Assembly (NCBI GenBank): GCA_020628865.1
Contig: JAHDEJ010000018.1
Span: 27,857-91,856 of the forward strand
Length of the DNA stretch: 64,000 nt
DNA from: Acidimicrobiales bacterium
Lineage (GTDB): Bacteria; Actinomycetota; Acidimicrobiia; Acidimicrobiales; SHLQ01
Direction of reading: 5' to 3'
A model generated the notes under the pieces. The model was not told the DNA's origin. It saw only the letters and a list, made by a program, of their open reading frames with translations, and ran no database searches. Positions within the stretch are counted from its first letter, which is position 1. Each line of letters begins with the position of its first letter. A program made the position numbers and the translations under genes. Shown piece after piece: positions 210 to 25,127 of this stretch.

Positions 210-226
210 ATTCGTCCATTCGTTGG

Positions 227-9224: not shown

Positions 9225-9842
9225 TCAGCGGATCAGCTCGGCATCGCTGCCAACAGCGCCGGTCCAGCAATACAGAAGCACGGTTGGCGTGACACCGAAA
9301 TCCTGCGAGTGAACGTCCCACGGCTTGTTGTGGACGGCATCGCCGGGCACGGTCGGCACCGCCACGCCGGACGCTCCTGTGAAGGTCGGCTCGCCATGGA
9401 GCACGTGGTACAACTCTTCCGCCTCGTGGCGATGCGCCGGATAGTGCTGGTGCGGACCCCACACACCGATCCCGATCCGCACCGACGGCTCTTCAACAAT
9501 CGCTCCCGGTCCGACCAACTGCACGTAGCCGTAGTTGTCGAGATAGTCGGCGCTCAACACGTCGAGGTAGCTGGCGGTTCGGCGCCACGGCAGCATTGGG
9601 GCGAGCCGTTGGAACTCCTCAAGCAAGGGGTCGATCACCGGGTCGCCCGTTGGCTGCACAGCCTCGAGGTGGCGTGCGACGGGTAGCGACACGGCTCCAA
9701 CCGTCTCCGGTGAAGCTGCCCGGTCAAGTACGTCGAGCACCTCGGCGACCATCGGATACTCCGGCACCACCGATCGGCTGCGATGGAACACGGCGATGCG
9801 CGCCAGCAACTCGTCGATCATGTCCGCCACGCTAGTTGCCAC
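9225..9842 (-). CDS. Cupin protein of the DMSP-lyase (DddQ/DddL-like) family
   Basis: 205 residues: a helical N-terminal part, then YLDNYGYVQLVGP (92-112) and a cupin with HYPAHRHEAEELYHVLHG (133-150) and PGDAVHNKPWDVH (167-178). The set H137, H139, E143, Y145 and H171 matches the metal-binding and catalytic layout of DddQ-type lyases, which cleave dimethylsulfoniopropionate to dimethyl sulfide and acrylate. The N-terminal PWR...DNY...GP pattern is also family-like. The start is GTG 9842, with internal GTG 9830 or ATG 9821 as alternatives. It is divergent from the enolase-led operon across only 42 bp, so shared regulation is likely. A related cupin lyase with another substrate is the main alternative. 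Confidence 0.7.
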   Translation of the reverse strand: MATSVADMIDELLARIAVFHRSRSVVPEYPMVAEVLDVLDRAASPETVGAVSLPVARHLEAVQPTGDPVIDPLLEEFQRLAPMLPWRRTASYLDVLSADYLDNYGYVQLVGPGAIVEEPSVRIGIGVWGPHQHYPAHRHEAEELYHVLHGEPTFTGASGVAVPTVPGDAVHNKPWDVHSQDFGVTPTVLLYCWTGAVGSDAELIR

Positions 9843-9884: not shown

Positions 9885-11084
9885 ATGGCCGCCATCGCCG
9901 AACGCACGCCCGTACCCATCGCCTCGGTCGAAGCGCTGATCGTCGCCGTGCCCGCCGAGGGCAACGCCTTCGCCGAAGGCGAAGAAGAGACGCTGCTCGT
10001 TCGCATCACCGACGAAGACGGCACGTGCGGCATCGGCGAATCCGTGTGCACGCCCAAGGTCGTGCAGGCGATGATCGAGCAGGAGACCATCCACTTCTGG
10101 AGCCAGGGCATCGGCGACCTGCTCGTCGGCGCCGACCCCGTCGAAGCCCGAGCGCTCTACGACCGGATCTACCACGGCAGCTTCTACCACGGCCGCCGCG
10201 GCACCTTCATCCAGGCCATGTCGGCCGTTGACATCGCCCTCTGGGACCTCGCCGGCAAGCAGCTGGGCGTGCCCGTCTACAAGCTGCTCGGCGGCGCCCG
10301 CACCGACCGAATCCGCCCGTACGCCACCTGCTACCCGGGCGACATCTACGACGGGCCGATGACCCCCATCGTCGACGAGATCGCCCGCCAGGCCGAGATC
10401 GCCGTGGACCAGGGCATCACCGCCATCAAGGTCCCCGTGCTCTTCGGCGACACCACCACCGACAAGCAGATCGTCCAGTTCACCGCCGAGTGCCGGCGCA
10501 TGGTCGGCGACGACATCGTCCTCGCGCTGGACTTCGGCTACCGCTGGTGGGACTGGCACGACGCGGCGTGGACCATGCGCCGCATCGAGGAGCACGACAT
10601 CCACTTCGCGGAAGCGCCGCTGCGGCACGACGACCTGCACGGCCACGCCCGCCTCGCCGACGTCTCCCCCATCCGCATCGGTGGCGCCGAGTTCGCCGCC
10701 GGCCGCTGGGAGGTGCGCGAGTGGCTCGAGACCGGAGGCGTCTCCCTCGTGCAACCCGGCGTCAGCCGCGCCGGCGGCTTCACCGAGCTCATGCGCATCG
10801 CCGAGATGTGCGAGATGTACGGCGCCCAGCTGATGCCGCACAGCTTCGCCACCGGCATCACCGACGTCGCCAACTTCCATCTCCAGGCCGCATCGCTCAC
10901 GATCCCCATGGTCGAGTTCCGCAGCAGTCGACTCGGCCCGTCCCGCCTGCGCACCGAGCTCGTTTCGCCGCCCGAACCCGAGATCGTCGACGGCTACGCC
11001 GAGCTGCCAACAGGAGCCGGTCTCGGCGTCGAGCTGAACGAAGACCTCGTCGCCGCACACACCAAGGTCAGCGGTACCCCGTGA
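9885..11084 (+). CDS. Enolase-superfamily protein (mandelate racemase/muconate-lactonising type)
   Basis: 399 residues with the capping domain and barrel of the MR group. Metal ligands are D216, E243 and E269. The second-strand motif reads K182-V-P184 instead of KxK or KxR, and the strand-7 Asp of the His-Asp dyad is Gly (QPGVSRAGG, position 292) although H319 (MPHSF) remains. The enzyme could still bind a carboxylate and magnesium and abstract an alpha proton through Lys182, but its chemistry is probably not the standard racemisation. It opens an operon whose next four junctions are 4 bp overlaps. 4-hydroxyproline-betaine epimerase is a known superfamily member acting on betaines, which suggests the substrate class but is not proof. 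Confidence 0.8.
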   Translation: MAAIAERTPVPIASVEALIVAVPAEGNAFAEGEEETLLVRITDEDGTCGIGESVCTPKVVQAMIEQETIHFWSQGIGDLLVGADPVEARALYDRIYHGSFYHGRRGTFIQAMSAVDIALWDLAGKQLGVPVYKLLGGARTDRIRPYATCYPGDIYDGPMTPIVDEIARQAEIAVDQGITAIKVPVLFGDTTTDKQIVQFTAECRRMVGDDIVLALDFGYRWWDWHDAAWTMRRIEEHDIHFAEAPLRHDDLHGHARLADVSPIRIGGAEFAAGRWEVREWLETGGVSLVQPGVSRAGGFTELMRIAEMCEMYGAQLMPHSFATGITDVANFHLQAASLTIPMVEFRSSRLGPSRLRTELVSPPEPEIVDGYAELPTGAGLGVELNEDLVAAHTKVSGTP

Positions 11085-12115
11085 CCGAACCCGAGGTGCC
11101 ACTCGTTCCCGCAGACGACTCTGCCTCCTCCGCGGCATCGAAGCGGTGGCACCACGTTCCCGACCAGCCCGTCTCCACCGCGCCGTTCCTGCACTGGCCG
11201 CTGCGGCCGGCCGCAATCGCCCGCCACCTTGCGAGCGCATGGTGGCCGCTCGGCACCCGGGTACTCATGCTGATCACGGCAATCGTGATCTGGAACTGGT
11301 TCAGCCCGACACTTGCGGAGGCCGAATCGTTCCGCCTCGGTTGGATGGCCGAGATCTGGGTTCGCAACGTGGTGCTGATCGCCGCGTGCGCAGGCCTGCC
11401 GCATCTCTGGCTCTACGTCCTTCGCCGCCAGGACGACGACCTTCGCTTCGATGCCCGGCCGCTCGGCAAGAACAAGCGGCTCTTCCTCTTCAACGACCAG
11501 GTCAAGGACAACGCCTTCCTGAGCCTCGTGCCCGCGCCGCTCATCGGCACGCTGTGGGAGTCGCTCGGGTGGTGGGCCTACGCCAACGGCCACGCCTCGA
11601 TGATCTCCTTCGACGACAACCCGGTCTGGTTCATCGCCTTCTTTGCGATCGTCCCCGTCTGGTCGATCGTCTACTTCTCGCTCGGCCACTGGCTACTGCA
11701 CCGCGGGCCCGCCTACACCCACGTGCACTCCTGGCACCACAAGAACGTCAACGTCGGCCCGTGGTCCGGCCTGGCCATGCACCCCGGCGAACACGTCGTC
11801 CTCTACGGAGACGTGCTCTTCTTCCTGGTCATCGCCTCGCACCCCGTGCACTTCCTGTTCGCAATGATGCACCACTCCATGGGCGCGCCCCTGAGCCACA
11901 CCGGCTACGACGCGATGAAGGTCGGCCCCGTCACCCTTCCGGTCGGCGACTTCTATCACCAGCTCCATCACCGCTTCATCGAATGCAACTACGGCGGCCC
12001 CGAAGCACCGCTCGACGACTGGCTCGGCTCGCTGCACGACGGCACCACAGCCGGCGACGAGAAGATCGCCGCCCGCCGCCGCCAGCTGAGCGCCGCGAAG
12101 CGAGGCAACCAATGA
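11081..12115 (+). CDS. Membrane di-iron hydroxylase (fatty-acid hydroxylase/sterol desaturase superfamily)
   Basis: 344 residues with several membrane helices and the histidine clusters of the superfamily: HWLLHR, HSWHHK, MMHHSMGAPLSH and HQLHHRFIECNYG. These ligate a di-iron centre that hydroxylates or desaturates with O2. The start is GTG 11081, overlapping the enolase stop by 4 bp; the following gene overlaps it by 4 bp. In this context a small-molecule hydroxylation step seems likelier than lipid modification, but that is inference from neighbours. Confidence 0.82.
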   Translation: MTEPEVPLVPADDSASSAASKRWHHVPDQPVSTAPFLHWPLRPAAIARHLASAWWPLGTRVLMLITAIVIWNWFSPTLAEAESFRLGWMAEIWVRNVVLIAACAGLPHLWLYVLRRQDDDLRFDARPLGKNKRLFLFNDQVKDNAFLSLVPAPLIGTLWESLGWWAYANGHASMISFDDNPVWFIAFFAIVPVWSIVYFSLGHWLLHRGPAYTHVHSWHHKNVNVGPWSGLAMHPGEHVVLYGDVLFFLVIASHPVHFLFAMMHHSMGAPLSHTGYDAMKVGPVTLPVGDFYHQLHHRFIECNYGGPEAPLDDWLGSLHDGTTAGDEKIAARRRQLSAAKRGNQ

Positions 12116-13365
12116 TCGCCGAGCGGCACGACTCCCCGAACGACATCGAGGCGCACAACCCGTTCCTCGGCAACAACCTCGGCATCGACGGGTTGCCCGC
12201 CGTGACCGCCGCGGCCATCGGCGAACGAACGATCGAGGTCTCGTTCTCCGATGGCGCGTCACACGACTTCCACCATCAGTGGCTCCGCCTCGCCTGCTAT
12301 TGCCAGGCGTGCGGGAACCCCGCCGACGGCATCCGGTTCAGCACCGCCATCGACATCGACCCCGACGCTGCCCCAGCATCGATCTCCGCAATCGACAGGG
12401 GCCTCGAAGTGCACTGGACCGACGGCCACATCTCGACCTACGGAAACGACTGGCTCCTCCACCACGCCTACGACGGTGCCGCCGCCGAGCGTCGACGCAC
12501 GTGGCGGCCGACGCTCTGGCGCTCCGAACTCGCCGCCGCCTTCCCCACGATCGCCTGGATGGATGCAACCGACGGCGCAGCCGGCCACCTCCGTCTCCTG
12601 CAACTCCTTCGGGACTTCGGCATCGTCCAGATCGCCGACATGGGTCCTGCGCAGGAGCGCACCGAGGAGCTCGCCAACCTGGTCGGGCCGATCCACGAGA
12701 CCACCGTGTATGGCCGCATCTACGACGTGCAGGCCGAACCCGTCGCCAAGCTCGGCGCCAAAACCGGCATGGCCCAGGCCGTGCACATCGACGATGCCTT
12801 CTCCTATTCGCAGCCCGGCATCGACATTTTCCACTGCCTCGTCAACACCGCGGTCGGCGGCATGAGCACCTACGCGGACGGCTTCGCCATCGCCGACGCG
12901 ATCCAGTCCGAGGAGCCCGACGCCTTCGAACTCCTCACGACCGTGCCCATCAGCCACATCCGCCGCCACCCCGGCGAGATCGACATGCGGAACCGGGGTC
13001 CACTCATCTCACTCGACGAGTTCGGCCGGCTCAGCGGCATCCGCTACTTCGACCGAGCCCTCGCGCCGCTGGACTGCGCGCCAGAGCTCATCGAGCCGAT
13101 GCTCGACGCCATCCGCGCCTTCAACCGCCGCATGGTCGATCCGGCGTTCATCGCCCAGATTCGAGTGGCGCCCGGCAACGGCATGCTCATCGACAACCAC
13201 CGAGTCATGCACGGACGCACGGCCTTCGACCCCTCCGCCGGTCGCCACATCCGGCTCTGCCACGTACCCCGCGACGAGTTCCATGGCCGCCTCCGAGAGC
13301 TGAGCCGCACGCTCGACCCCGCCCACCACGACCTCCACCTGCCCCAGGGTTCAACGCTGTCGTGA
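12112..13365 (+). CDS. Gamma-butyrobetaine/trimethyllysine hydroxylase-like 2-oxoglutarate dioxygenase
   Basis: 417 residues. The N-terminal DUF971-type zinc domain has C62, C64 and C67 (LACYCQACG) and HH at 117-118. The C-terminal TauD-type jelly roll has H225-I-D227 and distal H367 (DNHRVMHGRTAF), with R381 available for 2-oxoglutarate. This two-domain layout is that of gamma-butyrobetaine hydroxylase and trimethyllysine hydroxylase, which hydroxylate trimethylammonium acids. Here it lies between a di-iron hydroxylase and aconitase X, so it probably hydroxylates a betaine-like or related acid that later enzymes dehydrate. ATG 12112 overlaps the previous stop by 4 bp. Confidence 0.85.
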   Translation: MIAERHDSPNDIEAHNPFLGNNLGIDGLPAVTAAAIGERTIEVSFSDGASHDFHHQWLRLACYCQACGNPADGIRFSTAIDIDPDAAPASISAIDRGLEVHWTDGHISTYGNDWLLHHAYDGAAAERRRTWRPTLWRSELAAAFPTIAWMDATDGAAGHLRLLQLLRDFGIVQIADMGPAQERTEELANLVGPIHETTVYGRIYDVQAEPVAKLGAKTGMAQAVHIDDAFSYSQPGIDIFHCLVNTAVGGMSTYADGFAIADAIQSEEPDAFELLTTVPISHIRRHPGEIDMRNRGPLISLDEFGRLSGIRYFDRALAPLDCAPELIEPMLDAIRAFNRRMVDPAFIAQIRVAPGNGMLIDNHRVMHGRTAFDPSAGRHIRLCHVPRDEFHGRLRELSRTLDPAHHDLHLPQGSTLS

Positions 13366-14618
13366 CCATCTCGCTCGACGACCAAGAGCAGCGGTGGCTG
13401 GACGGTGCCGACGGCGCCGCCATGCAGCTCGCCATGCGCCTCGTGCTCGCGGCTGCGGAGGTGAGCGACGCCACGTCGTTCGTGCCGATCGAGATGGCCC
13501 ACATCAACTCGTGCCACTACAGCGGACGACTCTCGCTCGACTTCGCCGAGTTCCTCCTGGCCGAGGGCGCCACGCTCGCCGTGCCCACCCACACCAATGC
13601 CAGCCTCATCTCCTGCACGTCGCCCCACGTCCGCCCCGAAGCCAGCACGCCCGACGAGGTCGCCGGTGCCCGGCGGGTGATGGAGATCTACGAACAGCTC
13701 GGCTGCTCCACGATGTGGACGTGCGCCCCGTACCAACAACCCGAAGGCCGCCCGGCGTTCGGAACGCATGTGGTGGGGTCAGAGTCGAACGCCGTGGGCT
13801 TCACGAACTCGGTCCTCGGCGCCCGCACGAACAAGTACGGCGACCTGCTCGACATCTCCGCCGCCATGGTCGGCCGGGTGCCGCTGGCGGGCCTGCACAC
13901 CGACGAGGGTCGGCGAGCCTCCCACGTGTTCGACGTGGGCGACCTGACCGCCGCCGAGATCGCCGACCCCAACCTGCCGCACCTGCTCGGAGTGGTGCTG
14001 GGCCGCACGGTCGGCTCCGGCATCGGCGTGATCGACGGACTCGCGTCGGCCTCCGAAGACGAGCTCAAGGCGATCGCCGCGGGTGCAGCCGCCGCCGGCG
14101 GGGTAGACATGTTCCACGTTGTCGGCATCACCCCGGAAGCCCCGACGCTCGACGCTGCGCTCCACGGCGCACCAGCTGCGCAGCACACCACGGTCACCAG
14201 CACGCACCTGCGCGAAGCGGGAGCGATGCTCACCACCGCCGCCGCCGGCGACGAGTCGCTCTCGGCCGTGTGCCTGGGCACGCCCCACTTCTCCATCGAC
14301 GAGTTCGTCGAGACGGTCGATCGGCTCGACGGCCGCCAGGTGGCCGACGGCGTCACCGTGATGATCACGACGAGCCGCGCCGTCGCCGCCGAACTGTCGC
14401 TCCGCGGACTCGCCGACACACTCGCCGCCGCCGGCGTGCAGGTCGTGCTGGACACGTGCACCTACTACCCGCCGCACCCGACCGGCCTCGACGGTCTCAC
14501 CATGACCAACTCAGCCAAGTGGGCCTACTACGGCCAGGGCATGCTCGGCGTCCCCATCGCCTTCGCCAGCCTCGAACACTGCCTCGAATCCGCCATCGCC
14601 GGCCGGAGACTCCAGTGA
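13362..14618 (+). CDS. Aconitase X large subunit (DUF521), dehydratase
   Basis: 418 residues of the AcnX large-subunit family. It begins LDDQEQRWLDGADGAAMQLAM and carries INSCHYSG, SLISCTSPHV, FTNSVLGARTNKYGD and, near the end, MTNSAKWAYYGQG, all characteristic blocks. AcnX enzymes use an Fe-S cluster to dehydrate hydroxy-acids; known members act on cis-3-hydroxy-L-proline or phosphomevalonate. GTG 13362 overlaps the dioxygenase stop by 4 bp. The small subunit is encoded just downstream, so this is the two-subunit type. A product hydroxylated by the two upstream oxygenases is a logical substrate. Confidence 0.88.
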   Translation: MTISLDDQEQRWLDGADGAAMQLAMRLVLAAAEVSDATSFVPIEMAHINSCHYSGRLSLDFAEFLLAEGATLAVPTHTNASLISCTSPHVRPEASTPDEVAGARRVMEIYEQLGCSTMWTCAPYQQPEGRPAFGTHVVGSESNAVGFTNSVLGARTNKYGDLLDISAAMVGRVPLAGLHTDEGRRASHVFDVGDLTAAEIADPNLPHLLGVVLGRTVGSGIGVIDGLASASEDELKAIAAGAAAAGGVDMFHVVGITPEAPTLDAALHGAPAAQHTTVTSTHLREAGAMLTTAAAGDESLSAVCLGTPHFSIDEFVETVDRLDGRQVADGVTVMITTSRAVAAELSLRGLADTLAAAGVQVVLDTCTYYPPHPTGLDGLTMTNSAKWAYYGQGMLGVPIAFASLEHCLESAIAGRRLQ

Positions 14619-14638
14619 CTCTTCCCTCTCTCCCCCAC

Positions 14639-14746
14639 AAGGTGCCTGGCACCTATCACCCCTTTAGGTGCCAGGCACCTACGAGGCGAATCGTTGATTT
14701 TTGGGGGTTTTGGTGCGCGAAGTGAACGCAAAGGTGCCAGGCACCT
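14639..14746. repeat. Three GGTGCC-GGCACC palindromes inside the operon
   Basis: AAGGTGCCTGGCACCT (from about 14639), AGGTGCCAGGCACCT (about 14668-14682) and AAGGTGCCAGGCACCT (14731-14746) lie between the large and small AcnX genes. They are the same element as at 14-209. The third copy falls within the likely first codons of the small-subunit gene. This is the only junction among the first six operon genes that is not an overlap, so the array probably inserted there. Confidence 0.85.
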
Positions 14747-15108
14747 GGTTGGTGGATGGGGCGGTGCACGGGGAGGTCGTGCGGCTCGATGAGGCGCTCA
14801 GTTTCTGGGGAGGGTTCGACGCGGCGACCGGGCGCATCATCGACCAGAGCCATCCGCAGCACGGCACCTCGCTCGCCGGCAAGGTCGTCGCCATGCCCGG
14901 CAGCCGCGGCAGCTCGGGAACGCCCGGTGTGCTCGGCGAGGCCATCCGCCGGGGAACCGGCCCCGCCGCGATGATCATCACCAAAGCCGACATCAACCTC
15001 GTCGCCGGCGCCCTCACCGCACAGGCCCTCTACGACACCACCTGCCCGATCCTGCTCGTCGACACCGACACGTTCGCCGAACTCCCCGACCGAATGGACA
15101 TGCCATGA
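14713..15108 (+). CDS. Aconitase X small subunit (DUF126)
   Basis: Up to 131 residues with the whole DUF126 pattern: SFWGGFDAATGRIIDQSHPQ, GSRGSSGTPGVLGEAIRRGTGPAAMI, then ALTAQALYDTTCPIL. It swivels over the large subunit to complete the dehydratase. Start choice is awkward. GTG 14713, 14722 and 14734 are in frame, and the family's first strand aligns with TWLVDGAVHGEVV, so the REP palindrome at 14731-14746 would be translated as KVPGT. GTG 14752 would avoid it but lose part of that strand. Its stop overlaps the next gene by 4 bp (ATGA). Confidence 0.85.
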   Translation: MREVNAKVPGTWLVDGAVHGEVVRLDEALSFWGGFDAATGRIIDQSHPQHGTSLAGKVVAMPGSRGSSGTPGVLGEAIRRGTGPAAMIITKADINLVAGALTAQALYDTTCPILLVDTDTFAELPDRMDMP

Positions 15109-15926
15109 AACCCGAGAAGTGGTCCGACCCCACCAAGAAGCTCTTCCCCCACCAGGTCGGCTTCACCGGCCCACCCATGGACTTCGACGCCGCGCCGTCC
15201 GACTTCCTGCGCATCAGCCCGCCCACCGTCGGCGCCCACGGCCGGCTCCTGCACGCTCCCGGCTACAGCCACCAGCTCGATCAGCGGGTCGACAACTTCC
15301 ACCAACTGGAAGAGGTCGTGCATTGCTTCTCCAACGCCGGCGCCGACGTGGTCGGTCAGGTCGGCACCAACTGGGTCCACGCCGGCGGCCGGGACGTGCA
15401 CGACATCCGCACCTACGTGGCCGAGATGACCGAGAAATACGAGACGCCGCTGCACATGGCCGGCCTCACGCTCGTCCAGGCGTGCGAGGCGATGGGCTAC
15501 GAGAAAGTCGCCCTCAACTCCGTCTACTTCTGGCCGGACTGGCGAGACGGCGTCGTCCGGTTTCTGCGCAGCGCCGGCATCGACGTCGTCTGGTACGGCA
15601 ACTTCGTCGACCAGGGCTGGTACGACGACCAGGAGGTCGTCAACGAGCTCACCTGGATCTTCCCCGGCGACCTCGCCCTGAAGTCGTGCCAGCACGCCGT
15701 CGAGCACGCGCCAGATGTTGACGCCGTGCTCGTCAACGGCATGTCCAACTACGTCAACGACGACGGCCTGCCGCAGCGATTCGTCAGCCTCGCCGCCGAC
15801 ATCGAAGCCGAGATCGACACCCCCGTCCTCGCCGCCGACATCACCCTCTACTGGCAGATCTACCGCACCCTCGGCGTCGCCCCCGAAGGCCGCCAGGGCT
15901 CGCTGCTCTCCACCCTCCAATCATGA
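15105..15926 (+). CDS. Aspartate/glutamate racemase-superfamily protein lacking canonical cysteines
   Basis: 273 residues resembling the maleate-isomerase/arylmalonate-decarboxylase branch: FRVSPPT-like entry (DFLRISPPTVGAHG), EEVVHCFSNAGADVVGQVG, MAGLTLVQACEAMGYEKVAL and DAVLVNGMSNY. Family enzymes use one or two cysteines at the ends of the Gly/Thr-rich loops. Here the first loop reads GQVGTNWVHAGG and the second VNGMSN, neither with Cys. It may isomerise or decarboxylate by another route, or be non-catalytic. It overlaps the AcnX small-subunit gene by 4 bp, which ties it to the pathway. Confidence 0.65.
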   Translation: MKPEKWSDPTKKLFPHQVGFTGPPMDFDAAPSDFLRISPPTVGAHGRLLHAPGYSHQLDQRVDNFHQLEEVVHCFSNAGADVVGQVGTNWVHAGGRDVHDIRTYVAEMTEKYETPLHMAGLTLVQACEAMGYEKVALNSVYFWPDWRDGVVRFLRSAGIDVVWYGNFVDQGWYDDQEVVNELTWIFPGDLALKSCQHAVEHAPDVDAVLVNGMSNYVNDDGLPQRFVSLAADIEAEIDTPVLAADITLYWQIYRTLGVAPEGRQGSLLSTLQS

Positions 15927-15979
15927 ACAACAACGCAACCACGGATGCTCGGGCGGAAGTCCCGACGAAAGGACAGCCA

Positions 15980-16717
15980 ATGTTCCTCACCCTTTGGGCC
16001 ACGCCCCGTTCCACGTCCACCGCGTTCGAGTGGATGATGCGACAGCGCGGCGACTTCGCCTGCCACCACGAGCCGTGGAACGAGCTCTACTACTACGGCG
16101 AGGATCGGGTCAGCGACCGCGACGCCCACGTCGAAGCGAAGCCCGGCCACAACTACGCGGCCACCTGGCAGGAGCTGTCCGACGGCGGCCGCACCGGCCA
16201 CGTGTTCGTGAAGGACTTCGTCTACTCGGTCGAGCACACGCTGACCGATGAGATGCTCGCCGAGATCACCCACACGTTCCTCATCCGTGATCCGAAGCGG
16301 GTCGTGCAGGGGTTGGCCAAGCACTGGCCGGATTGCAGCTGGGACGAGGTCGGCTTCGAATCGCTGCACCGGCTCTTCCATCGCGTCGCCGACCGCGACG
16401 GCACGCCGCCACCCGTGATGCACTCGGCCGATCTGCTCGACGACCCGGCCGGCACCGCCCGCGGCTACTGCGACGCCGTCGGCATCCCGTTCATCGCCGA
16501 GGCGCTCGAGTGGGAAGCCGGCGATCGCAGCGAGGTCAGCTGGTACGGCGAAGGCACCGGCCCCTGGCACGACAACCTGCGCGAGAGCACCGGCATCCAG
16601 AAGCCGAAGACCACCTACCCGCCGCTCGAAGAGAACCCGCGCCTCTTCGAACTCTACGAACGAGCCGTCCCCCTCTATGAGGACATGCTCGCCCACGCGT
16701 TCTCCCCGATCAGCTAG
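15980..16717 (+). CDS. Sulfotransferase-like protein
   Basis: 245 residues. The N-terminus LWATPRSTSTAFEWMM is the 5'-phosphosulfate-binding loop of PAPS-dependent sulfotransferases, and THTFLIRDPKRVVQGLAKH matches the 3'-phosphate-binding region. ATG 15980 is preferred because GAAAGGAC lies 5 bases upstream and the loop begins at once. An ATG at 15923 overlapping the previous stop would add 19 residues. A sulfonated intermediate is possible, but some members of this family have other or unknown roles. The SDR gene follows after 30 bp. Confidence 0.7.
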   Translation: MFLTLWATPRSTSTAFEWMMRQRGDFACHHEPWNELYYYGEDRVSDRDAHVEAKPGHNYAATWQELSDGGRTGHVFVKDFVYSVEHTLTDEMLAEITHTFLIRDPKRVVQGLAKHWPDCSWDEVGFESLHRLFHRVADRDGTPPPVMHSADLLDDPAGTARGYCDAVGIPFIAEALEWEAGDRSEVSWYGEGTGPWHDNLRESTGIQKPKTTYPPLEENPRLFELYERAVPLYEDMLAHAFSPIS

Positions 16718-16747
16718 TCAACCGAACACCGAAAGGTCCCACCCACA

Positions 16748-17518
16748 ATGGAAATCTCCCTCGAAGGCAAGCGAGCATTCGTCACCGCCGGCGGTGACGG
16801 CATGGGCCGCACCACCGCGATGACGATGGCGAAACTCGGCGCCGAGGTCTTCACCTGCGACATCGATCCGAGCGGCCTGGCCACCCTCCCCGACGAGATC
16901 ACGACCTGGGAGTGCGACGTCACCGACTCCACGCAGCTCGACGCGATCTTCGACGAGATCCTGCCCGGCGGGCTCGACATCATGGTCAACAACGCCGGCG
17001 TCGGCGGCCCGACAAAGATGGTCGAAGACGTCACCAACGAGGAGTGGGCCCACTGCATGGGCGTGTGCATCGACGCGCAGTTCTATTGCGCTCGCCGCGT
17101 CGCCCCCGTCTTCAAGGCCCAGCAGAGCGGCGTGCTCATCAACATGGTGTCGGCGGCCGGCATCCTCGGTTTCCCCGGCCGCTCGCCGTACGTTGCCGCA
17201 AAGTGGGCGGTCGCCGGCTTCACCGAGACCCTCGCGATGGAGCTCGGCCCCGACAACATCCGCGTGAACGGCATCGTGCCCGGCAACGTCAACGGCCAGC
17301 GCATGGAGAACGTCATCGCCGCCCACGCCGCCGCCGAAGGGCTCGACCCCGAGGATGTCCGCCGCATGTACGCCATCGGAACGTCGATGCAGTGCTATGT
17401 GGACCCGCAGGAGATCAGCGACCTCATCATGTTCCTCGTGAGCGACTACGGCCGCCACATCTCCGGGCAGATCATCGGCGTCGACGGCAACACCGAAACG
17501 CTCTACCCACGCAGCTGA
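16748..17518 (+). CDS. Short-chain dehydrogenase/reductase
   Basis: 256 residues, classical SDR length. Visible motifs are TAGGDGMGR (cofactor-binding TGxxxGxG, residues 13-21), NNAGVGG, the catalytic Ser in MVSAAG and YVAAK. CDIDPSG after the second strand indicates an NAD-preferring site. It would oxidise a hydroxyl or reduce a ketone, and it is the last gene of the rightward operon: the next gene converges on it. A GAAAGG ribosome-binding site precedes ATG 16748. Confidence 0.88.
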   Translation: MEISLEGKRAFVTAGGDGMGRTTAMTMAKLGAEVFTCDIDPSGLATLPDEITTWECDVTDSTQLDAIFDEILPGGLDIMVNNAGVGGPTKMVEDVTNEEWAHCMGVCIDAQFYCARRVAPVFKAQQSGVLINMVSAAGILGFPGRSPYVAAKWAVAGFTETLAMELGPDNIRVNGIVPGNVNGQRMENVIAAHAAAEGLDPEDVRRMYAIGTSMQCYVDPQEISDLIMFLVSDYGRHISGQIIGVDGNTETLYPRS

Positions 17519-17550: not shown

Positions 17551-18867
17551 TCAGCGAACCTCGACCGGGCCGAGCACCCGGTCGAGGTAGTCGTTGGTGA
17601 ACGTGGCCGAAGGGTCGACCCGCCGGCGGACGGCCGCGAACCGATCCCATTCGGGGTACCGGGGGCGCAGGGTTTCGGCCGTCTGGTAGTGCCACTTGCC
17701 CCAGTGGGGCCGCCCGTCGTAGTCGTTCATGATCGCTTCGACCGCGCGGAAGTACGGGTCGTGGTCCGTGCCCTTGTAGCGATGAACGGCAATCCAGCCG
17801 CTGGCTCTGCCGTGCGCGGTCGACAACGGAATGTCGTCGGCGGCCGAGACCCGAACCTCGATCGGGAACGACGGCGCCTCCGGCAGCGAGGCCACCACAT
17901 CCTGCACGCGCCGGAAGGCCTCGGGCAGTGCGTCGAGCGGGATGCCGTACTCCATCTCCATGAACCGGACGTGCCGGGGCGACGCGAACACGTCGAAGCT
18001 TCGGCCAACCCGTTCGGACGACGTCACCGCGCTGCCCAGCAACTTCTGCACCCGGTCGCGCGAGCCGGGAAAGCGGCGAACGGTGCGCATCGCCGCGCCG
18101 AACGCCAGATTCTCCAGGAGCAGCTTCTCGGCCTTGACCCGCCGCTCCGTGAACCGACCGGGCTCCTCGTTCGTGTGGTCGTTCCGCTTGACCAACGCAC
18201 GTCGGGTTCCCGGCATCCAGAAGAACTCGGCGTGGGCGGCGCTGCTCACGAACCCGTCCCAGTCCGCCAGCAGGTCCTCCACCACCTCGGCGGTCTCCAC
18301 CGAATGCAAGTTGAACGCAGGCACCGTCTCGAGTTCGACCCGCGTGATGATGCCGAGCGCACCCACGCTCACCCGGGCCACGGCGAAGAGCTCCGGGTCG
18401 GTGGTGGCGTCGCACCAAACCACCTCGCCCGTTGCGGTGACCAGCTCCAGCCCCGTGATCCCGGTAGACAGATTGCCGAGGTTCAAGCCGGTGCCGTGCG
18501 TTGCCGTGGCCGTCGCTCCCGCAATCGTCTGCACGTCGATGTCGCCCAGATTCGGCAGCGCACGGCCATGCGCATGCAACGCCAGGTTGAGGTCGGCGAG
18601 CCGCATGCCCGCGCCGACCAGCACCCGGCCGGTCGATGGGTCCATGCGCAGCTGGCTCGGCATTGCGTCGAGCTGCATCAACACACCATCGGTCATTGCC
18701 GCACCCGTGAACGAATGGCCGGCGCCGATCGCCTTCACCCGACAGCCGGCCGTCGTCGCAGCCGCCATTCGATCCGCGAGCTCGCCGACCGACCGCGGCC
18801 GTACGATCGCCGCCGGATCACACCATTGGTTACCCGCCCAGTTCTCGTTCACCCGCTCCCTGCCCAT
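17551..18867 (-). CDS. FAD-linked oxidase of the aldonolactone oxidase type
   Basis: 438 residues: an N-terminal FAD domain (IVRPRSVGELADRM, then AIGAGHSFTGAAMTDG, whose His is the usual covalent FAD site) and a C-terminal domain with RPHWGKWHYQTAE and the ending FTNDYLDRVLG. This pattern is that of D-arabinono-/L-gulono-1,4-lactone and alditol oxidases, which oxidise sugar lactones or polyols with O2 or another acceptor. ATG 18867 was chosen over TTG 18891. It converges on the SDR gene with a 32 bp gap; nothing shows it belongs to the neighbouring pathways. Confidence 0.85.
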   Translation of the reverse strand: MGRERVNENWAGNQWCDPAAIVRPRSVGELADRMAAATTAGCRVKAIGAGHSFTGAAMTDGVLMQLDAMPSQLRMDPSTGRVLVGAGMRLADLNLALHAHGRALPNLGDIDVQTIAGATATATHGTGLNLGNLSTGITGLELVTATGEVVWCDATTDPELFAVARVSVGALGIITRVELETVPAFNLHSVETAEVVEDLLADWDGFVSSAAHAEFFWMPGTRRALVKRNDHTNEEPGRFTERRVKAEKLLLENLAFGAAMRTVRRFPGSRDRVQKLLGSAVTSSERVGRSFDVFASPRHVRFMEMEYGIPLDALPEAFRRVQDVVASLPEAPSFPIEVRVSAADDIPLSTAHGRASGWIAVHRYKGTDHDPYFRAVEAIMNDYDGRPHWGKWHYQTAETLRPRYPEWDRFAAVRRRVDPSATFTNDYLDRVLGPVEVR

Positions 18868-18897
18868 CGAGACACGGTACCGGGGAGCCAACGCACA

Positions 18898-20277
18898 TCA
18901 TTGACAACCTCCGACCAACTCCGGGACCCGTAGGTGGTGGTCGGTCGCTGCCTGAAATTGCGCGCCGACTGCAGCGAGCGTCCGTTCAGAAAATGGTCGA
19001 CCGATCAGCTGAAAGCCGATGGGCAGGCCATCGGAGGCAAAGCCTCCCGGCAACGCAATCGACGGCAGACCAACCCCGTTGACCGGGAACGTGAATTGCG
19101 TGGTTGACGGAATGAGGGGGACATCATCGATCGTTTCGACGCCATGCGGAAGAACCTGATTCGGGTTGACCGGAGCGATGATCAGGTCCACGCCTTGATC
19201 GTCGAACACGTTGAGGTAGTCACGCTCGACGGTCATGCGAGCGGCTTGTGCCTGGGCGAAGGCGGTACCCGGAATGGCCGCGCCGTCCGCCATGATCGCC
19301 GCAGCCTCGTCACCGATCAACGCGCCCTTCTCATCCCGCAACTCCTCCAGAAGTGCCGCAGATTCCGCGAACACAATGGTCGCTCCAGACTCGAAGTGCG
19401 CTTCGGTGTTCGGCACACGAACCTCCTCCAGGCCCTGCAGGAGCAGTTCAAGCACGCCGATCGCGCGCTCCGCGACCGCCCTGACCTCCACATCCGTCAC
19501 GAAACCTTCGAAGAAGGACTCGTCTGGAACCCCGAGCACCAGGCCCGAGGGAACCGCAGCCCGAGCAAGCGGCGTCTTCGCAGAGAAGGGGTCCAACGGC
19601 GAATAGCCTGCAATCACATCGAGGAGCACTCCACAGTCCATCGCGCTCCTCGCCATCGGACCGACGGTGTCGTAGGTCCAGGAAATCAGGTGAACACCGT
19701 CTCGTGGAACGGCACCTCTCGTCGTCTTGATACCGGTCGTACCGCAATAGTTGGACGGAATACGGACCGATCCTCCCGTGTCGGTTCCCAGTGCGCCGAA
19801 GACCTGACGAGCCGCGAGCGCTGCGGCACTACCCCCAGACGATCCACCCGTCATCCGGGCGGTGTCCCACGGGTTTCGAGACGCCGGACAAGACACGCCG
19901 TAGGCGAGCTCGTGAGTGTTCGTCTTGCCCACGATCACCGCCCCAGCCGCACGAAGCCGACCGACGACACTTGCGTCTCGATCAGGGGTGAAGCCGGTCA
20001 ACGCATCGCAGTTGGCCTCGGTCGGCACGCCCTCGGTGAAGAAGAGGTCCTTGACCGCGATCGGTACGCCGTGGAGCGGGCCGATCGGCTCGGACGCGTC
20101 GAGCTTTGCTGCAGCCGCCAACGCCTGATCGGCCTGCACCGAAGCGAAGGCAGCGATGGCTGCGTCGGTCGCATCGATTCGGGCGAGGGCCGCCTCGACC
20201 AACTGGACCGAGGTCACCGACCGCGCTCGAACAGCTGCGGCCGCCTCGGTGAGGCTCATGGAATTGTGATCCGTCAT
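18898..20277 (-). CDS. Amidase-signature hydrolase
   Basis: 459 residues with the Ser-cisSer-Lys triad of amidase-signature enzymes: K76 (VKDLFF), S146 (TGGSSGGSA) and nucleophile S170 (GTDTGGSVRIPS). It hydrolyses carboxamides to acid plus ammonia; GatA-like, aliphatic and aryl amidases share this fold. It is the last gene of a five-gene minus-strand operon behind an ABC importer of the amide/urea/branched-chain type, 11 bp after the livF-like gene, so it probably hydrolyses the imported amide. No GatB or GatC partner is present nearby, which argues against a tRNA amidotransferase role. Confidence 0.88.
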   Translation of the reverse strand: MTDHNSMSLTEAAAAVRARSVTSVQLVEAALARIDATDAAIAAFASVQADQALAAAAKLDASEPIGPLHGVPIAVKDLFFTEGVPTEANCDALTGFTPDRDASVVGRLRAAGAVIVGKTNTHELAYGVSCPASRNPWDTARMTGGSSGGSAAALAARQVFGALGTDTGGSVRIPSNYCGTTGIKTTRGAVPRDGVHLISWTYDTVGPMARSAMDCGVLLDVIAGYSPLDPFSAKTPLARAAVPSGLVLGVPDESFFEGFVTDVEVRAVAERAIGVLELLLQGLEEVRVPNTEAHFESGATIVFAESAALLEELRDEKGALIGDEAAAIMADGAAIPGTAFAQAQAARMTVERDYLNVFDDQGVDLIIAPVNPNQVLPHGVETIDDVPLIPSTTQFTFPVNGVGLPSIALPGGFASDGLPIGFQLIGRPFSERTLAAVGAQFQAATDHHLRVPELVGGCQ

Positions 20278-20288
20278 GTTGTGTCTCC

Positions 20289-20975
20289 TTAGATGACGAG
20301 GTGTGTGGCGATTCGTTCGTGGATGTCTGGCTCGTCGGCATGTCCGCTCGCAACGACCTCGCCCTTTTCGAGAACAACGAACCTGGTAGCCAAACTCGTT
20401 GCGAGGGCCAAGTGCTGCTCGACCAGAATCACTCCCAGCCCGTCGTCGCGAGCCTGCGAAAGGTGCTTCCCGAGAAGGTCGACATTCGAGGGCTGCAGAC
20501 CCTCAGTTGGTTCGTCCATCACGAGAATCGACGCGCCCGCACGGAGCGCACAGCCGGATGCGAGCATCTTCTGCTCGCCACCGGACAGGGTTCCGGCACG
20601 TTGCTGATCGCGGCCGATCAGCGAGTCCGGGAACATCTCCAGGACGTCCGCCTGTGCTGAAGCGTCTAGGCCGTTGAGACGAAGATTGTCACGTACGGTC
20701 AGTTCCGAGAACACGGCGCGCTCCTGATACACGGCCCGTAGCCCCGCCCGCACCCGCCGTGATGGAGGCCAGCGGGTCACGTCATTGCCTCCGAGACGCA
20801 CCGACCCGGAAGTCGCCGGGAGCAACCCCATGAGCGCCTTGATCAGGGTCGTCTTCCCCACGCCGTTGCGTCCGACGATGGCAACGATCTCACCCTGTTC
20901 GACCGAGACAGACACGCCGTGAAGCGCCGGTACCGCTCCATAGCCTGCTTCGAGCCCTGTCGCTTGGAGCCGCAT
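20289..20975 (-). CDS. ABC transporter ATPase, LivF/UrtE type
   Basis: 228 residues: Walker A GRNGVGKTT, Q-loop in AVYQERAVFSELTV, signature LSGGEQKML, Walker B ILVMDEPTEGLQPS and the switch His in VEQHLALA. The short length and LQPSNV are typical of LivF/UrtE ATPases, which pair with a LivG partner to power branched-chain amino acid, urea or amide import. ATG 20975 shares one base with the stop of the upstream fused gene (TGATG), so translation is coupled. Confidence 0.88.
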   Translation of the reverse strand: MRLQATGLEAGYGAVPALHGVSVSVEQGEIVAIVGRNGVGKTTLIKALMGLLPATSGSVRLGGNDVTRWPPSRRVRAGLRAVYQERAVFSELTVRDNLRLNGLDASAQADVLEMFPDSLIGRDQQRAGTLSGGEQKMLASGCALRAGASILVMDEPTEGLQPSNVDLLGKHLSQARDDGLGVILVEQHLALATSLATRFVVLEKGEVVASGHADEPDIHERIATHLVI

Positions 20976-22723
20976 CAGTGCGCCTGGCCCAGGTAGACCG
21001 CTCGCACCGCCGGATCGCTTTCGACGACATCCACGGTGCCGTCGGCGAGCAGTGCGCCACGAGCGAGCACCGTGACCCTGTCGGCAACGGCGCGGATGAA
21101 CGCCATGTCGTGCTCGACGATCAGGATTGGCAGGTCGAAGTCCGAGTGGAGCTGACGCAGGAGCTCGGCAGCACGAAGGCTCTCCGCAACCGTCATACCT
21201 GCGGTAGGTTCGTCGAGGAGAAGGACTCGACAATCACCTGCCATCGCCATGGCGATCTCCAACCACTGCTTCTCACCGTGCGACAGTTCGCCGGCCGCAT
21301 CGTTCAGTCGCGCATCGAGCCCCGTCTGCGAAAGAACCTGCAGCGACCCCTGGGCCACCTGTGCCGACCATGACTGAGCCGCAAGCGCAAGCGGCCATGC
21401 CGTTGGACCCCATGCGGCAATGGCGATGTTCTCGGCAACCGTGAGAGGGTCGATCACCTGCGGCGCCTGAAACTTCCGGCTGATACCGTGTCGGGCGAAC
21501 TGCCACGCCGGCTTCGACGTCAGCCGGTGCCCGAGCAATGAAACATCGCCCTCCTGGTGACTCTGCTGTCCGCAGAGCAGATCGAGAAACGTTGTCTTGC
21601 CGGCGCCATTCGGTCCGATCAGGCATCGGAGCTCCGGCGTCTCCATCTGGAGCGAAATGTCGGCCAGAACGGTGAACGAACCAAATCGTTTCTCAATGTT
21701 GGAGGCGTCGATGATCGGCGACGCTCGCTCATCGCGCTCGTCAACCGGCCGCTCGACAAGATCCGGTTCCAGGGTCTTGCGTGCGGGGCGCCCCACGAGC
21801 CCGAGAAGCGCGGGCACGAGACCCTGCGGGACGAGGATGACCGCCACGATGAAGATCAGTCCGGTCGCGAGGACCCAGTACTGCAACCATGCGTCCGCAA
21901 GAGCGGCAGACAGGAAGTTGATCAGAAGCGTCCCAACAACCGGTCCAACGACGGTGCCCCGGCCTCCGATGAGGGTCCAGAGGACAACATTGGTGGCAAG
22001 CGTGAATCCGAAGATGCCAGGCGAGACGAATCCGGTCCGGTGCACGTAGAGCGTGCCGCCCAGTCCGGCGATCGCCCCACCGAGCGTAAAGGTCCAGATC
22101 TTCAAGTGCGTCACGTGGTAGCCGCACGCCTCCATTCGGCGTTCGTTTTCGCGGATCCCGATCAGCACGGCTCCGAACGGTCGACTGACAAGCCAGGCCA
22201 CAGCACCGATCGCAAGAATCGCCACCACCGAGATGACAAGGTCCTGCCCGCGGTCGGATGTTTGGTAGCCGAAGATGTTGAGGCGGGGAACACCCGTCAA
22301 CCCCGTGAACCCGCCGGTCACGTCGCGCCATTGCTCGGCGATTTGTTCGAACATCAACGACAACATGAACGTCAGAAGGCCGACAACGATCAGCGAGAGG
22401 CGACGACGAAAGGCCGCAAGGCCGACAAGGTACGAGACTGCGGCCCCGACCACGACCGAGCCGAACACAGCGACCAGGCCGAGCGTTGGCTGAGCGATGC
22501 TCAGCTTCGCCGACAGATATGCAGCGACACCAAAGGGCAGGAGCTGACCCAACGAGAGTATTCCTGCCTGACCCCACACCAGGTCGAGGCTCACTGCGAG
22601 AACGGCGAGGCTCAAGAACAACGACAGCTGGCCGCTTCGGAACTCGCCGAGGGTGAGGTTCAATGCAACAGCTGCACCGAGCGACATCAGCAACCAGGCC
22701 TTCCGCGGAGTGGCGAGATTCAT
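20975..22723 (-). CDS. Fused ABC permease-ATPase, LivM-LivG type
   Basis: 582 residues joining two proteins that are often separate. Residues 1 to about 320 form a LivM/UrtC permease (GQAGILSLGQLLPFGVAAY, IRENERRMEACGY, WTLIGGRGTVVGP). After a charged linker, residues from about 340 form a LivG/UrtD ATPase with GPNGAGKTT, LSHGEKQWLEIAMAM, LLLDEPTAGM and VEHDM. ATG 22723 overlaps the previous gene's stop by 4 bp; the longer upstream reading lacks homology. The fusion fixes one ATPase per LivM subunit. It contributes to import of an amide- or amino-acid-like solute. Confidence 0.88.
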   Translation of the reverse strand: MNLATPRKAWLLMSLGAAVALNLTLGEFRSGQLSLFLSLAVLAVSLDLVWGQAGILSLGQLLPFGVAAYLSAKLSIAQPTLGLVAVFGSVVVGAAVSYLVGLAAFRRRLSLIVVGLLTFMLSLMFEQIAEQWRDVTGGFTGLTGVPRLNIFGYQTSDRGQDLVISVVAILAIGAVAWLVSRPFGAVLIGIRENERRMEACGYHVTHLKIWTFTLGGAIAGLGGTLYVHRTGFVSPGIFGFTLATNVVLWTLIGGRGTVVGPVVGTLLINFLSAALADAWLQYWVLATGLIFIVAVILVPQGLVPALLGLVGRPARKTLEPDLVERPVDERDERASPIIDASNIEKRFGSFTVLADISLQMETPELRCLIGPNGAGKTTFLDLLCGQQSHQEGDVSLLGHRLTSKPAWQFARHGISRKFQAPQVIDPLTVAENIAIAAWGPTAWPLALAAQSWSAQVAQGSLQVLSQTGLDARLNDAAGELSHGEKQWLEIAMAMAGDCRVLLLDEPTAGMTVAESLRAAELLRQLHSDFDLPILIVEHDMAFIRAVADRVTVLARGALLADGTVDVVESDPAVRAVYLGQAH

Positions 22724-23583
22724 GCGACGAGTCCACTTCTGGACGATCGACCGAACTGGAGTACAACGACCGCCAGCAGCAGGGACACGATCTGCGCCAA
22801 CACGGCGTCGGCGAAGTGGATCGCTCCCGTCTGAACAGCAGCGACGATGCCAGCGCCGAGAACGACACCCCACAGGCGACTGACACCACCAACGATGACG
22901 ACGAGAAACGCACCCGGAAGATACGTGAGGCCAATCTGCGGCTCGACCGCCCCGAGCGGCGCCACGAGCGCGCCGGCCACACCTGCCGTGGCGGCACCGA
23001 TCCCAAAGGCAAGGCTGTTGACGACACTCGTACGGATTCCGGCCGACTCCGCCAGCTCACGATCGGCGACGATCGCTTGAACCGTGAGTCCGAATTGCGA
23101 GCGGGTGAACGTGAGCAAGGTCACCACCACGACCGTCACGGCAACAGCGATCAGGACGAACCTATACGTCGGATAGAGGACGCCGAGCGCCGGAGTCGCA
23201 CCGGGAACCGGGTTCACCACGGACCGGAAGTCTTTGGTGAAGATCAGCTCTGCGAGCTGGCGGAGCACGATCGACAACCCGAAGGTCGCAAGGATGGTGA
23301 GCTCCGGACGCTGGTAGATCCGCCTGATCAGCGCGAGCTCAATCATCCCACCGAGCAGGAGAAGCACGATGGCGGCGATCGGAATCGCAAGCCAATGGCT
23401 GCGTCCGGCCTCCTGGACCATGAAGGCGACGTAGGCGCCGACCATCACGAACTCGCCGTGTGCCAGGTTGATCACACCCATGAGTCCAAACACGATGCCC
23501 AGGCCGAGGGCGACGATCGCAAGGGTGGCGAATGATCCGACTCCGTTGAGAATTTCCGAGGTCAGTGCGTCCACAACGAACAC
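22720..23583 (-). CDS. ABC transporter permease, LivH/UrtB type
   Basis: About 287 residues with eight or so membrane segments and the LivH signatures GLMGVINLAHGEFVMVGAY near the N-terminus and VVIVGGVSRLWGVVLGA near the C-terminus. GTG 23583 was chosen because GGAAAGGAAG lies just upstream; the longer ORF start has no such site. It pairs with the LivM half of the next gene to form the membrane channel. A strong hairpin separates it from the binding-protein gene upstream. Confidence 0.86.
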   Translation of the reverse strand: MFVVDALTSEILNGVGSFATLAIVALGLGIVFGLMGVINLAHGEFVMVGAYVAFMVQEAGRSHWLAIPIAAIVLLLLGGMIELALIRRIYQRPELTILATFGLSIVLRQLAELIFTKDFRSVVNPVPGATPALGVLYPTYRFVLIAVAVTVVVVTLLTFTRSQFGLTVQAIVADRELAESAGIRTSVVNSLAFGIGAATAGVAGALVAPLGAVEPQIGLTYLPGAFLVVIVGGVSRLWGVVLGAGIVAAVQTGAIHFADAVLAQIVSLLLAVVVLQFGRSSRSGLVA

Positions 23584-23603
23584 GCTTCCTTTCCGCTTGG
23601 AGC

Positions 23604-23641
23604 GGAGGCGGTGGTCAGCCCGTCGGCCAACCACCGCCTCC
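23604..23641 (-). promoter_or_regulatory. Hairpin between binding-protein and permease genes
   Basis: A perfect 12 bp stem (GGAGGCGGTGGT at 23604-23615 with 23630-23641) and 14-base loop lies 31 bp after the binding-protein stop and about 20 bp before the permease start. Such hairpins commonly protect upstream mRNA or partly terminate, giving more binding protein than permease. No T tract follows. Confidence 0.6.
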
Positions 23642-23672
23642 TCTCTGGTTGTCCTGTCACCAGGAGGGATGG

Positions 23673-24983
23673 TCAGGACGGGTCGCAGGTCTCGTCGGGT
23701 TCGACGGCGGGGAAGGACTGGACGATCTTCTGCGATCCGTCCGCTTGGACCTCAGCGATGTGGATCGGCTGGAGAAGATGCCGGCTGTCGGTGATCGTCA
23801 GGTCGCCGGTTGGCGTGGTGATCGAGCGTCCCTCGAGCGCTGCGATGACGGCGCCGGTTTCGGTCGTGCCGGCATCGTTCGCCGCCGAAGCGTAGAGAAG
23901 CGCGGCATCGTAGATGTGGGAACTGAAGGTGGCATGAGGCGCCGCTTCTTCACCGAAGGTCTCGATGTAGCGCTCGACGAACGCCATGTTCGCCTCGCTC
24001 TCGACCTCCTTGAAGTAGCCGAGCGTCACGTACATTCCTGCGGTGATCTCGGGGCCCATCGCAGCAAGCACGTTCTCTTCATAGATGTTGGCCAGACGTG
24101 CGATCGTGTCCTGGCCGATGCCGAAGTCGACGGCCTGTGTCTCGAACGCCACGGCGTCACCGCCGACGAGGGCGGGGAAGAGCAGGTCTGCGCCGGAGCT
24201 GGCAATCTGTTGAGACACGGAAGCGAAATCCTGAGTGCCCAGCGGAACGTACTCTTCGCCGACAACTTCGCCGCCAATCGACTCGATGTACTCCCGAGCG
24301 AGCTCGAAGCTGCGCCGCGGCCACTGGTAGTCGTTACCGAGAAGGAACCACTTCTGACCGGCGGTCTCTTGCATGACCCATGGAATCGCGGGCGCCAACT
24401 GTTGGCTCGGGACTTCGCCCGTGTTGAACATGACGGCGGAACACTCGCCGCCTTCGTAGAGCGCCGCATAGATGTACGGCACGTTTGCCGCTTCGGCGAG
24501 GGGTTTGGCGGCAGCTCGGGTGGCGCTCGAGTGTGTGCCGAGGACGACGTCGACGTTGTCCGAGTCGAGCAGCTGCTCCATCGCCTGGCGGCCCACCTCG
24601 GGGTCGCTGGCGTCGTCAGCGAAAACGACCTCAACCGGGCGGCCGTTGATCCCGCCTGCTTCATTGAGATCTTCCTCGATGAGCTGACCGATGTTGCTCA
24701 CGGGTGGGCCGAAGACTCCCGCTGGTCCGCTGTTCGAGAAGAGCACACCGATTCGGACGGGCTCATCGGAAGGGCCGGTCGATGCGTCGGAGTCATCGTC
24801 GGTCTCGGCAGCCTCGACGTCCTGCGAAGTACCCGCCGATCCCGAATCGATGTCCGCTGTCGTTGCATCGCTGTCGTTGTTGTCGCCGCGGCCGCACGCC
24901 GCGGCCAGCAAGGCGATCACGATCATGAACGCCGTGAAGCAAGTTGTCCATGGCCGCTGATGAGTGTCGGATCGAGATTCCAT
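23673..24983 (-). CDS. ABC transporter substrate-binding lipoprotein (AmiC/UrtA-like)
   Basis: 436 residues. A signal peptide ends in a lipobox (LLAAACGRG), followed by an Asp/Ser/Thr-rich linker and a type I periplasmic-binding fold: RIGVLFSNSGPAGVFG, FADDASDPEVG, GTHSSATRAAAK, PYIYAALYEGG and LGNDYQWPRR. These blocks resemble amide (AmiC), urea (UrtA) and formamide binding proteins more than leucine-binding ones. ATG 24983 has GGGGGAA upstream. A palindromic operator sits 14 bp before the start, matching the one at the arsR gene. It delivers the solute to the permease complex encoded downstream. Confidence 0.88.
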   Translation of the reverse strand: MESRSDTHQRPWTTCFTAFMIVIALLAAACGRGDNNDSDATTADIDSGSAGTSQDVEAAETDDDSDASTGPSDEPVRIGVLFSNSGPAGVFGPPVSNIGQLIEEDLNEAGGINGRPVEVVFADDASDPEVGRQAMEQLLDSDNVDVVLGTHSSATRAAAKPLAEAANVPYIYAALYEGGECSAVMFNTGEVPSQQLAPAIPWVMQETAGQKWFLLGNDYQWPRRSFELAREYIESIGGEVVGEEYVPLGTQDFASVSQQIASSGADLLFPALVGGDAVAFETQAVDFGIGQDTIARLANIYEENVLAAMGPEITAGMYVTLGYFKEVESEANMAFVERYIETFGEEAAPHATFSSHIYDAALLYASAANDAGTTETGAVIAALEGRSITTPTGDLTITDSRHLLQPIHIAEVQADGSQKIVQSFPAVEPDETCDPS

Positions 24984-24996
24984 CTTTCGATTCCCC

Positions 24997-25024: not shown

Positions 25025-25075
25025 CACTCAGTGGAAGAAGCGGTCAAGCCGAGTCCGAGAGAATTGGTCTGCCGC

Positions 25076-25102: not shown

Positions 25103-25127
25103 AAGGCGACGCGCGAGTCGGATCAGT

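Follow-up and report, generated by a model that had tools for sequence, protein, structure and literature searches.

The window analysed here is a 64,000-nucleotide stretch from an Acidimicrobiales bacterium (assembly GCA_020628865.1, contig JAHDEJ010000018.1, positions 27,857 to 91,856), part of a 117-kb contig in a 5.36-Mb draft genome. It carries an operon of eight co-directed genes (9885-17518) for an enolase-superfamily protein, a membrane di-iron protein, a gamma-butyrobetaine hydroxylase (GBBH)-like Fe(II)/2-oxoglutarate (2OG) oxygenase, the two AcnX subunits, a protein of the arylmalonate decarboxylase (AMDase) fold, a sulfotransferase and a short-chain dehydrogenase/reductase (SDR), and every family of the eight genes passed its Pfam gathering score. 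Gene calls and coordinates confirmed the sequence-only reading that all eight are co-directed and that five junctions overlap by 4 bp, and these are exactly five (11081-11084, 12112-12115, 13362-13365, 15105-15108 and 15923-15926). The junction between the AcnX genes is a gap of 82-94 bp, depending on the start codon, and is filled by repeats; 30 bp separate the sulfotransferase and SDR genes. Overlaps of 4 bp are by themselves ordinary for operons. The operon is more than a chance arrangement because its frames recur at full length with 62-95% identity on independent contigs, in the full order in two of them.

Table 1 Features of the operon and its immediate surroundings (positions in the window).
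Feature	Position	Strand	Remark
DddQ-like cupin (DMSP_lyase family)	9225-9842	-	Divergent from the operon, possible accessory; PF16867, 93.6 bits
Enolase-superfamily protein, mandelate racemase (MR) type	9885-11084	+	PF13378/PF02746; nearest PDB entry 3mqt
Membrane di-iron FA_hydroxylase-superfamily protein, accessory	11081-12115	+	PF04116; His motifs
GBBH-like Fe(II)/2OG oxygenase, new subfamily	12112-13365	+	PF02668 and PF06155; nearest PDB entry TmpA (6npb)
AcnX large subunit	13362-14618	+	PF04412, E = 1.2e-110
Palindrome AGGTGCC[A/T]GGCACCT, three copies between the AcnX genes	14640-14746	+	Repeat count
AcnX small (swivel) subunit	14713-15108	+	PF01989; GTG start, TTG at 14701 a possible alternative
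AMDase-fold protein without the catalytic cysteine (gene 6)	15105-15926	+	AlphaFold2 model, structural matches
Sulfotransferase of the 3'-phosphoadenosine 5'-phosphosulfate (PAPS) type (Sulfotransfer_5; gene 7)	15923-16717	+	PF19798; AlphaFold2 model
SDR oxidoreductase	16748-17518	+	PF00106/PF13561

The distribution of the operon was profiled in two ways. A search with AcnX covered 40 relatives and was independent of the AMDase-like gene, and 84,980 species genomes were scanned with the AMDase-like protein as query, which returned 40 loci that contain this gene by construction. The non-redundant set comprises about 41 loci, including the window and a distant locus (L068). The named matching loci are almost all metagenome-assembled genomes (MAGs) of Acidimicrobiales, and the carriers are nearly all MAGs of Acidimicrobiia. 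A plasmid search with gene 6 gave nothing beyond 23% matches in Planktothrix, and a phylum-wide search gave matches at E ≤ 1e-40 in just 2 of 396 genomes. The full operon is present in three MAGs (the window, L026 and L061) and its modules in 41 loci. L026 and L061 have different flanks; an amidase gene follows the enolase gene in L026. The trio of AcnX, GBBH-like and di-iron proteins, on whose occurrence elsewhere the sequence-only reading had staked its proposal, is thus found in both. The pair of AMDase-like and sulfotransferase genes is the most widely kept, usually with AcnX and SDR genes, and this module of four occurs in other loci. The pair alone is found in Alphaproteobacteria (L057-L059 and L062), and SDR with AcnX alone in L017 and L018. 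Ten similar MAGs (L038-L043, L045-L047 and L060), so closely related that their loci are not independent counts, have enolase, GBBH-like, AMDase-like and other SDR genes with a SoxA-like gene, some without one or more of these.

AcnX was compared at landmark residues (taken from PMC8184944, which leaves the type II subclasses c-f without an assigned function). By sequence it is nearest to cis-3-hydroxyproline (C3LHyp) dehydratase, with which it shares the two-part fold, the serine base and the ring-packing tryptophan; S70, W35, C273, C508, E292, S293, N294, N233, K530 and Y534 are all kept, and so are the cluster, carboxylate and hydroxyl ligands common to the type IIa enzymes. It differs from that dehydratase at T72 (G69 of the small subunit, in which S70 is kept), D203 (N49 of the large subunit) and I206 (H52), and falls in a separate clade. 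T72 and D203, which hold the proline nitrogen, are Gly and Asn in all SDR-linked AcnX, whereas Ser and Asp stand at these positions in AcnX of a sister clade from related genomes; Cys510 of AtAcnX is Tyr in the operon enzyme and likewise in the sister clade. Mevalonate 5-phosphate dehydratase has a third cluster cysteine (Cys283 of TkAcnX, at the position of AtAcnX S449) that the operon enzyme lacks, with Thr307 in 19 of the 19 sequences that have this column. C3LHyp was therefore rejected as the substrate on the loss of both amine ligands, and phosphomevalonate on the loss of the third cluster cysteine, and the landmark residues bear out the earlier statement that this AcnX is of neither type. 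Operon-type AcnX was not seen with Lhp genes in the examined loci. In the AcnX search, the Asn-type enzyme lay near an SDR gene in 7 of 7 contigs; the SDR gene adjoins it in every locus with both sides visible, and SDR identity is 74-95% near AcnX. L056 has a Gly-type AcnX without the SDR.

The GBBH-like oxygenase shares with BBOX and TmpA, the latter a 2-trimethylaminoethylphosphonate dioxygenase, the GBBH N-domain with CxCxxC, the HxD...H iron triad and the 2OG arginine. Equivalents of the BBOX iron ligands (H202, D204 and H347) and of R360, which binds 2OG, are present in the window protein and its orthologs. The trimethylammonium cage and the carboxylate ligands of BBOX (PMC4497603) are replaced: Y177/W181/Y194/Y205 read Y/Y/K/D, with the Lys in all close orthologs, and N191/N292 read L/F. 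The protein scored 212.1 bits against the GBB dioxygenase equivalog TIGR02409 (cut-off 414.75, hence about half) and 234.6 bits against the TmpA equivalog NF049936 (cut-off 400). On these pocket residues carnitine and gamma-butyrobetaine were rejected as its substrate. A second GBBH-like paralog (42%) at L056:1448-2719 has Glu at the invariant Lys of the operon enzyme, and adjoins a choline-sulfatase-like gene and an OYE-family oxidoreductase gene. Across the set, the hydroxylase slot is filled by GBBH-like proteins in 13 loci, by HalD-like proteins with an HFD motif (HxD) in six and by PhyH-like proteins in three. An HFD motif marks a hydroxylase rather than a halogenase. Because three Fe/2OG families fill the slot, hydroxylation likely belongs to the pathway, and the proposal of hydroxylation followed by dehydration gained strength from this and from the kept dehydratase core of AcnX.

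The AlphaFold2 model of gene 6 (predicted local distance difference test score, pLDDT, 90.5) matched 4ix1, annotated as hypothetical, with Z 30.4, and then AMDase with Z 26.5 (root-mean-square deviation 2.3 over 230 residues). The protein has in common with AMDase the fold, the PP motif and the equivalents of G74, T75 and Y126 (active-site residues from PMC4996985). It differs in that the proton donor Cys188 is Gly212 in 26 of 26 sequences, S76 is N89 and G189 is M213, so AMDase activity is not to be assumed. The catalytic cysteine positions of Asp/Glu racemase and maleate isomerase are both Gly, and these two activities and AMDase were all rejected for gene 6 on the absent cysteines. By fold and motifs its partner, gene 7, is a PAPS sulfotransferase with predicted sulfonation activity: the PRSTST and RDP motifs (5'-phosphosulfate-binding and 3'-phosphate-binding) are conserved, and all top structural matches of its model (pLDDT 90.5) are sulfotransferases, with no match in a PDB sequence search. 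Best were the domains of Ols (Z 13.4) and CurM (Z 12.6), which sulfonate beta-hydroxyacyl groups before decarboxylation (PMC3903477). This ranking is weak evidence because tyrosylprotein sulfotransferase follows closely (12.0); unlike the CurM and olefin synthase domains, to which its identity is 15-16%, the operon enzyme is stand-alone, without polyketide synthase (PKS) context. The sequence-only reading had named both genes and left them out of its reasoning, though they are the most widely conserved pair. In three loci (L049:3816-9907, L050:11624-15439 and L051:3008-5989) genes for an unnamed Fe/2OG-like protein, a PhyH/EctD-like hydroxylase and an EutA-like protein with cysteines come after the pair, and the L049 and L050 islands also hold a DoeA-like M24 protein; in these islands an ectoine-type pathway may have been joined to this core.

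The enolase keeps its metal ligands (D216, E243 and E269) as well as K182 and H319. K166 of MR is P184 and D270 is G292 in 13 of 13 sequences, so that the KxK motif and His-Asp dyad of the MR subgroup, at the positions that we take to be theirs in MR, are incomplete in the window enolase. Its nearest structure is uncharacterised by title. The di-iron protein has the HxxxH, HxxHH and HxxHH motifs, found no match in a PDB sequence search, and has orthologs (69-80%) only in L026, L061 and L019. It was rejected as a core enzyme since few loci carry it, and the two oxygenases of the sequence-only reading thus do not define the system.

The genes around the system were surveyed across the set. DddP-like M24 genes adjoin it in six of about 37 usable loci (L013, L027, L044, L048, L052 and L068), where about 0.5% per locus would be expected from 1.84 genes per genome in the family (p about 1e-7), and these six proteins keep the metal-binding motifs. 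DddP-like M24 proteins are multi-copy in the family (mean 1.84; genomes G000-G018). GbdR-like regulator genes lie upstream of the enolase gene in L026 and L061. The L068 island (L068:6573-19314), from a distant Acidimicrobiales family, contains an LhpJ-type enolase nearest to cis-3-hydroxyproline dehydratase, the AMDase-like and sulfotransferase genes, a sarcosine-oxidase/GcvT-like protein, a GbcA-like Rieske protein, and DddP-like and MmgE/PrpD genes. It thereby resembles proline betaine and hydroxyproline betaine clusters (with HpbD and LhpJ enolases), whereas the window enolase belongs to another MR branch. Carnitine dehydrogenase-like and choline-sulfatase-like genes occur in L056, and a gene for type III glutamine synthetase, the only such neighbour above a curated cut-off, lies close to the core in L028. 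Since the DddP, GbcA and GbdR matches are below their cut-offs, as are the enolase of L068 and both genes in L056, the neighbours name classes and not substrates. In the window itself, the divergent cupin is above the PF16867 cut-off with best PDB matches to DddQ (4la2/5jso), has no NCBIfam match, and was not found in other loci of the set. On the minus strand at 17551-26567, convergent to the operon, lie an ALO-family oxidase, an amidase and a branched-chain/urea-type ATP-binding cassette (ABC) transporter with two binding proteins, which could be a source of substrate uptake. The palindrome AGGTGCC[A/T]GGCACCT has seven copies in the window (22-210 and 14640-14746) against 0.09 expected, and 106 in the source genome against 0-5 in 11 relatives; the three copies at 14640-14746 reach into the start of the AcnX small-subunit gene. 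It is a lineage-specific repeat of the repetitive extragenic palindromic (REP) kind, with one cluster within the operon.

Familiar folds that lack the residues defining the known substrates point to a putative undescribed pathway. From gene order, conservation, folds and the kept and lost catalytic residues, which the sequences and models establish, we infer a modular catabolic pathway for a small carboxylate osmolyte, most likely betaine- or imino-acid-like, a reading that leads our list at a confidence well short of even. A hydroxyl beta to the carboxylate would come from the Fe(II)/2OG enzyme, which is GBBH-like in the window and HalD-like or PhyH-like in relatives, and AcnX would then dehydrate this 3-hydroxy acid, which would have no free amino group at position 2. 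The SDR may interconvert hydroxyl and keto groups before or after the AcnX step, and the sulfotransferase may place sulfate on a hydroxyl as a leaving group. The carboxylate-stabilising site of the AMDase-fold protein would serve a C-C or elimination step independent of a cysteine as proton donor; the enolase would act on a related intermediate by epimerisation or dehydration, with the di-iron protein as an optional extra hydroxylase. The DddP-like lyases, N-demethylase-like genes, GbdR-like regulators and L068 enolase favour onium or imino-acid catabolism, and the retention of Trp35, the loss of the nitrogen ligands and the L068 enolase would all be consistent with a substrate that is cyclic and N-methylated. 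Of the betaine suggested from the sequence alone, the general class draws its support solely from neighbouring genes in relatives, and gamma-butyrobetaine and carnitine themselves fell with the cage and carboxylate ligands. Several points weigh against the osmolyte pathway. The DddP-, GbcA- and GbdR-like matches are all below curated family cut-offs. K217 and H384 occupy the positions of BBOX Y194 and Y366, where a trimethylammonium group is ill-suited, which argues against a simple compound of this kind in that pocket. Invariant R47 of gene 6 stands at Y48 of AMDase, in the hydrophobic pocket that expels CO2, so that decarboxylation is not assured. Catabolic pathways seldom include a sulfotransferase that consumes PAPS. 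A sugar acid as substrate would likewise fit the genes for LtnD-like proteins, class II aldolases and enolases in L035, L044 and L048, and partly in L014 and L030.

This last point belongs to the main rival, an anionic sugar-acid-like or hydroxy-dicarboxylic substrate, in which the MR-type enolase would carry out the dehydration of a sugar acid, and its product would be processed by the hydroxylase, AcnX and SDR. The genes just named, with LtnD/HIBADH-like proteins and a second enolase at the same position, agree with it, as do the invariant Lys and His of the pocket in the GBBH-like enzyme, the ALO-family oxidase downstream in the window and the window enolase, whose top NCBIfam scores are to sugar-acid dehydratases, all far below cut-off. 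Pro and Gly in place of the standard dehydratase pair K166/D270 speak against it, and it leaves the DddP-, GbdR- and N-demethylase-like neighbours unexplained; we consider it a serious but somewhat unlikely alternative. The wide retention of the PAPS-type sulfotransferase beside the AMDase-like gene, Alphaproteobacteria included, could instead mean that the operon makes or detoxifies a small sulfated metabolite. This is improbable, as no pattern of nonribosomal peptide synthetases (NRPS), PKS or exporters surrounds the loci, the neighbours are catabolic enzymes and betaine-type regulators, and the L038-type loci do without the sulfotransferase yet keep the hydroxylase, enolase and AMDase-like genes.

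The remaining alternatives name known substrates. A role in the use of dimethylsulfoniopropionate (DMSP) or another sulfonium compound, with the DddQ- or DddP-like lyase as a pathway step, would account for the divergent cupin and for the kept metal-binding motifs in the six DddP-like loci. We give it little credence, since the DddP-like proteins do not reach the NCBIfam cut-off for the lyase and are multi-copy in the genomes of the family, the cupin is without an NCBIfam match, and most loci have neither lyase. In a variant cis-3-hydroxyproline pathway, the GBBH-like enzyme would make 3-hydroxyproline for AcnX; the nearness of this AcnX to C3LHyp dehydratase and the kept packing of W35 on the pyrrolidine ring suit it, but the loss of amine ligands that the sister clade retains makes it very unlikely, and no Delta1-pyrroline-2-carboxylate reductase was identified in the operon. 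Least probable of all is degradation of gamma-butyrobetaine through carnitine and, by AcnX, crotonobetaine: the family resemblance of the oxygenase and the carnitine dehydrogenase-like gene in L056 are met by the loss of BBOX cage and carboxylate ligands in all orthologs (PMC4497603) and by the low equivalog score.

The sulfotransferase and the cysteine-less AMDase-fold protein might form a two-step catabolic unit, an idea that we regard as a long shot. The beta-hydroxyl made by the Fe/2OG enzyme would be sulfonated, and the AMDase-fold protein would then bring about decarboxylative elimination, in which the departure of sulfate takes the place of carbanion protonation by a cysteine. If true, CurM-like chemistry would act on free small acids in primary catabolism, and AcnX would be the alternative route of plain dehydration.

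The enzyme families are known; their combination and residue changes are without description in the searched literature. No account of AcnX with a sulfotransferase and a dioxygenase, or of the whole gene combination, was found in a search to which most subscription papers were outside, and titles and abstracts since 2017 yielded no further AcnX activity. The residue changes offer concrete and cheap assays. If the proposed osmolyte catabolism is true, the operon would represent a new catabolic pathway, with a third AcnX activity and a new substrate for the GBBH family, and would give a function to the AMDase-like family without the cysteine, of which 4ix1 is the only solved member found. It would also bear on the use of small organic compounds by Acidimicrobiia.

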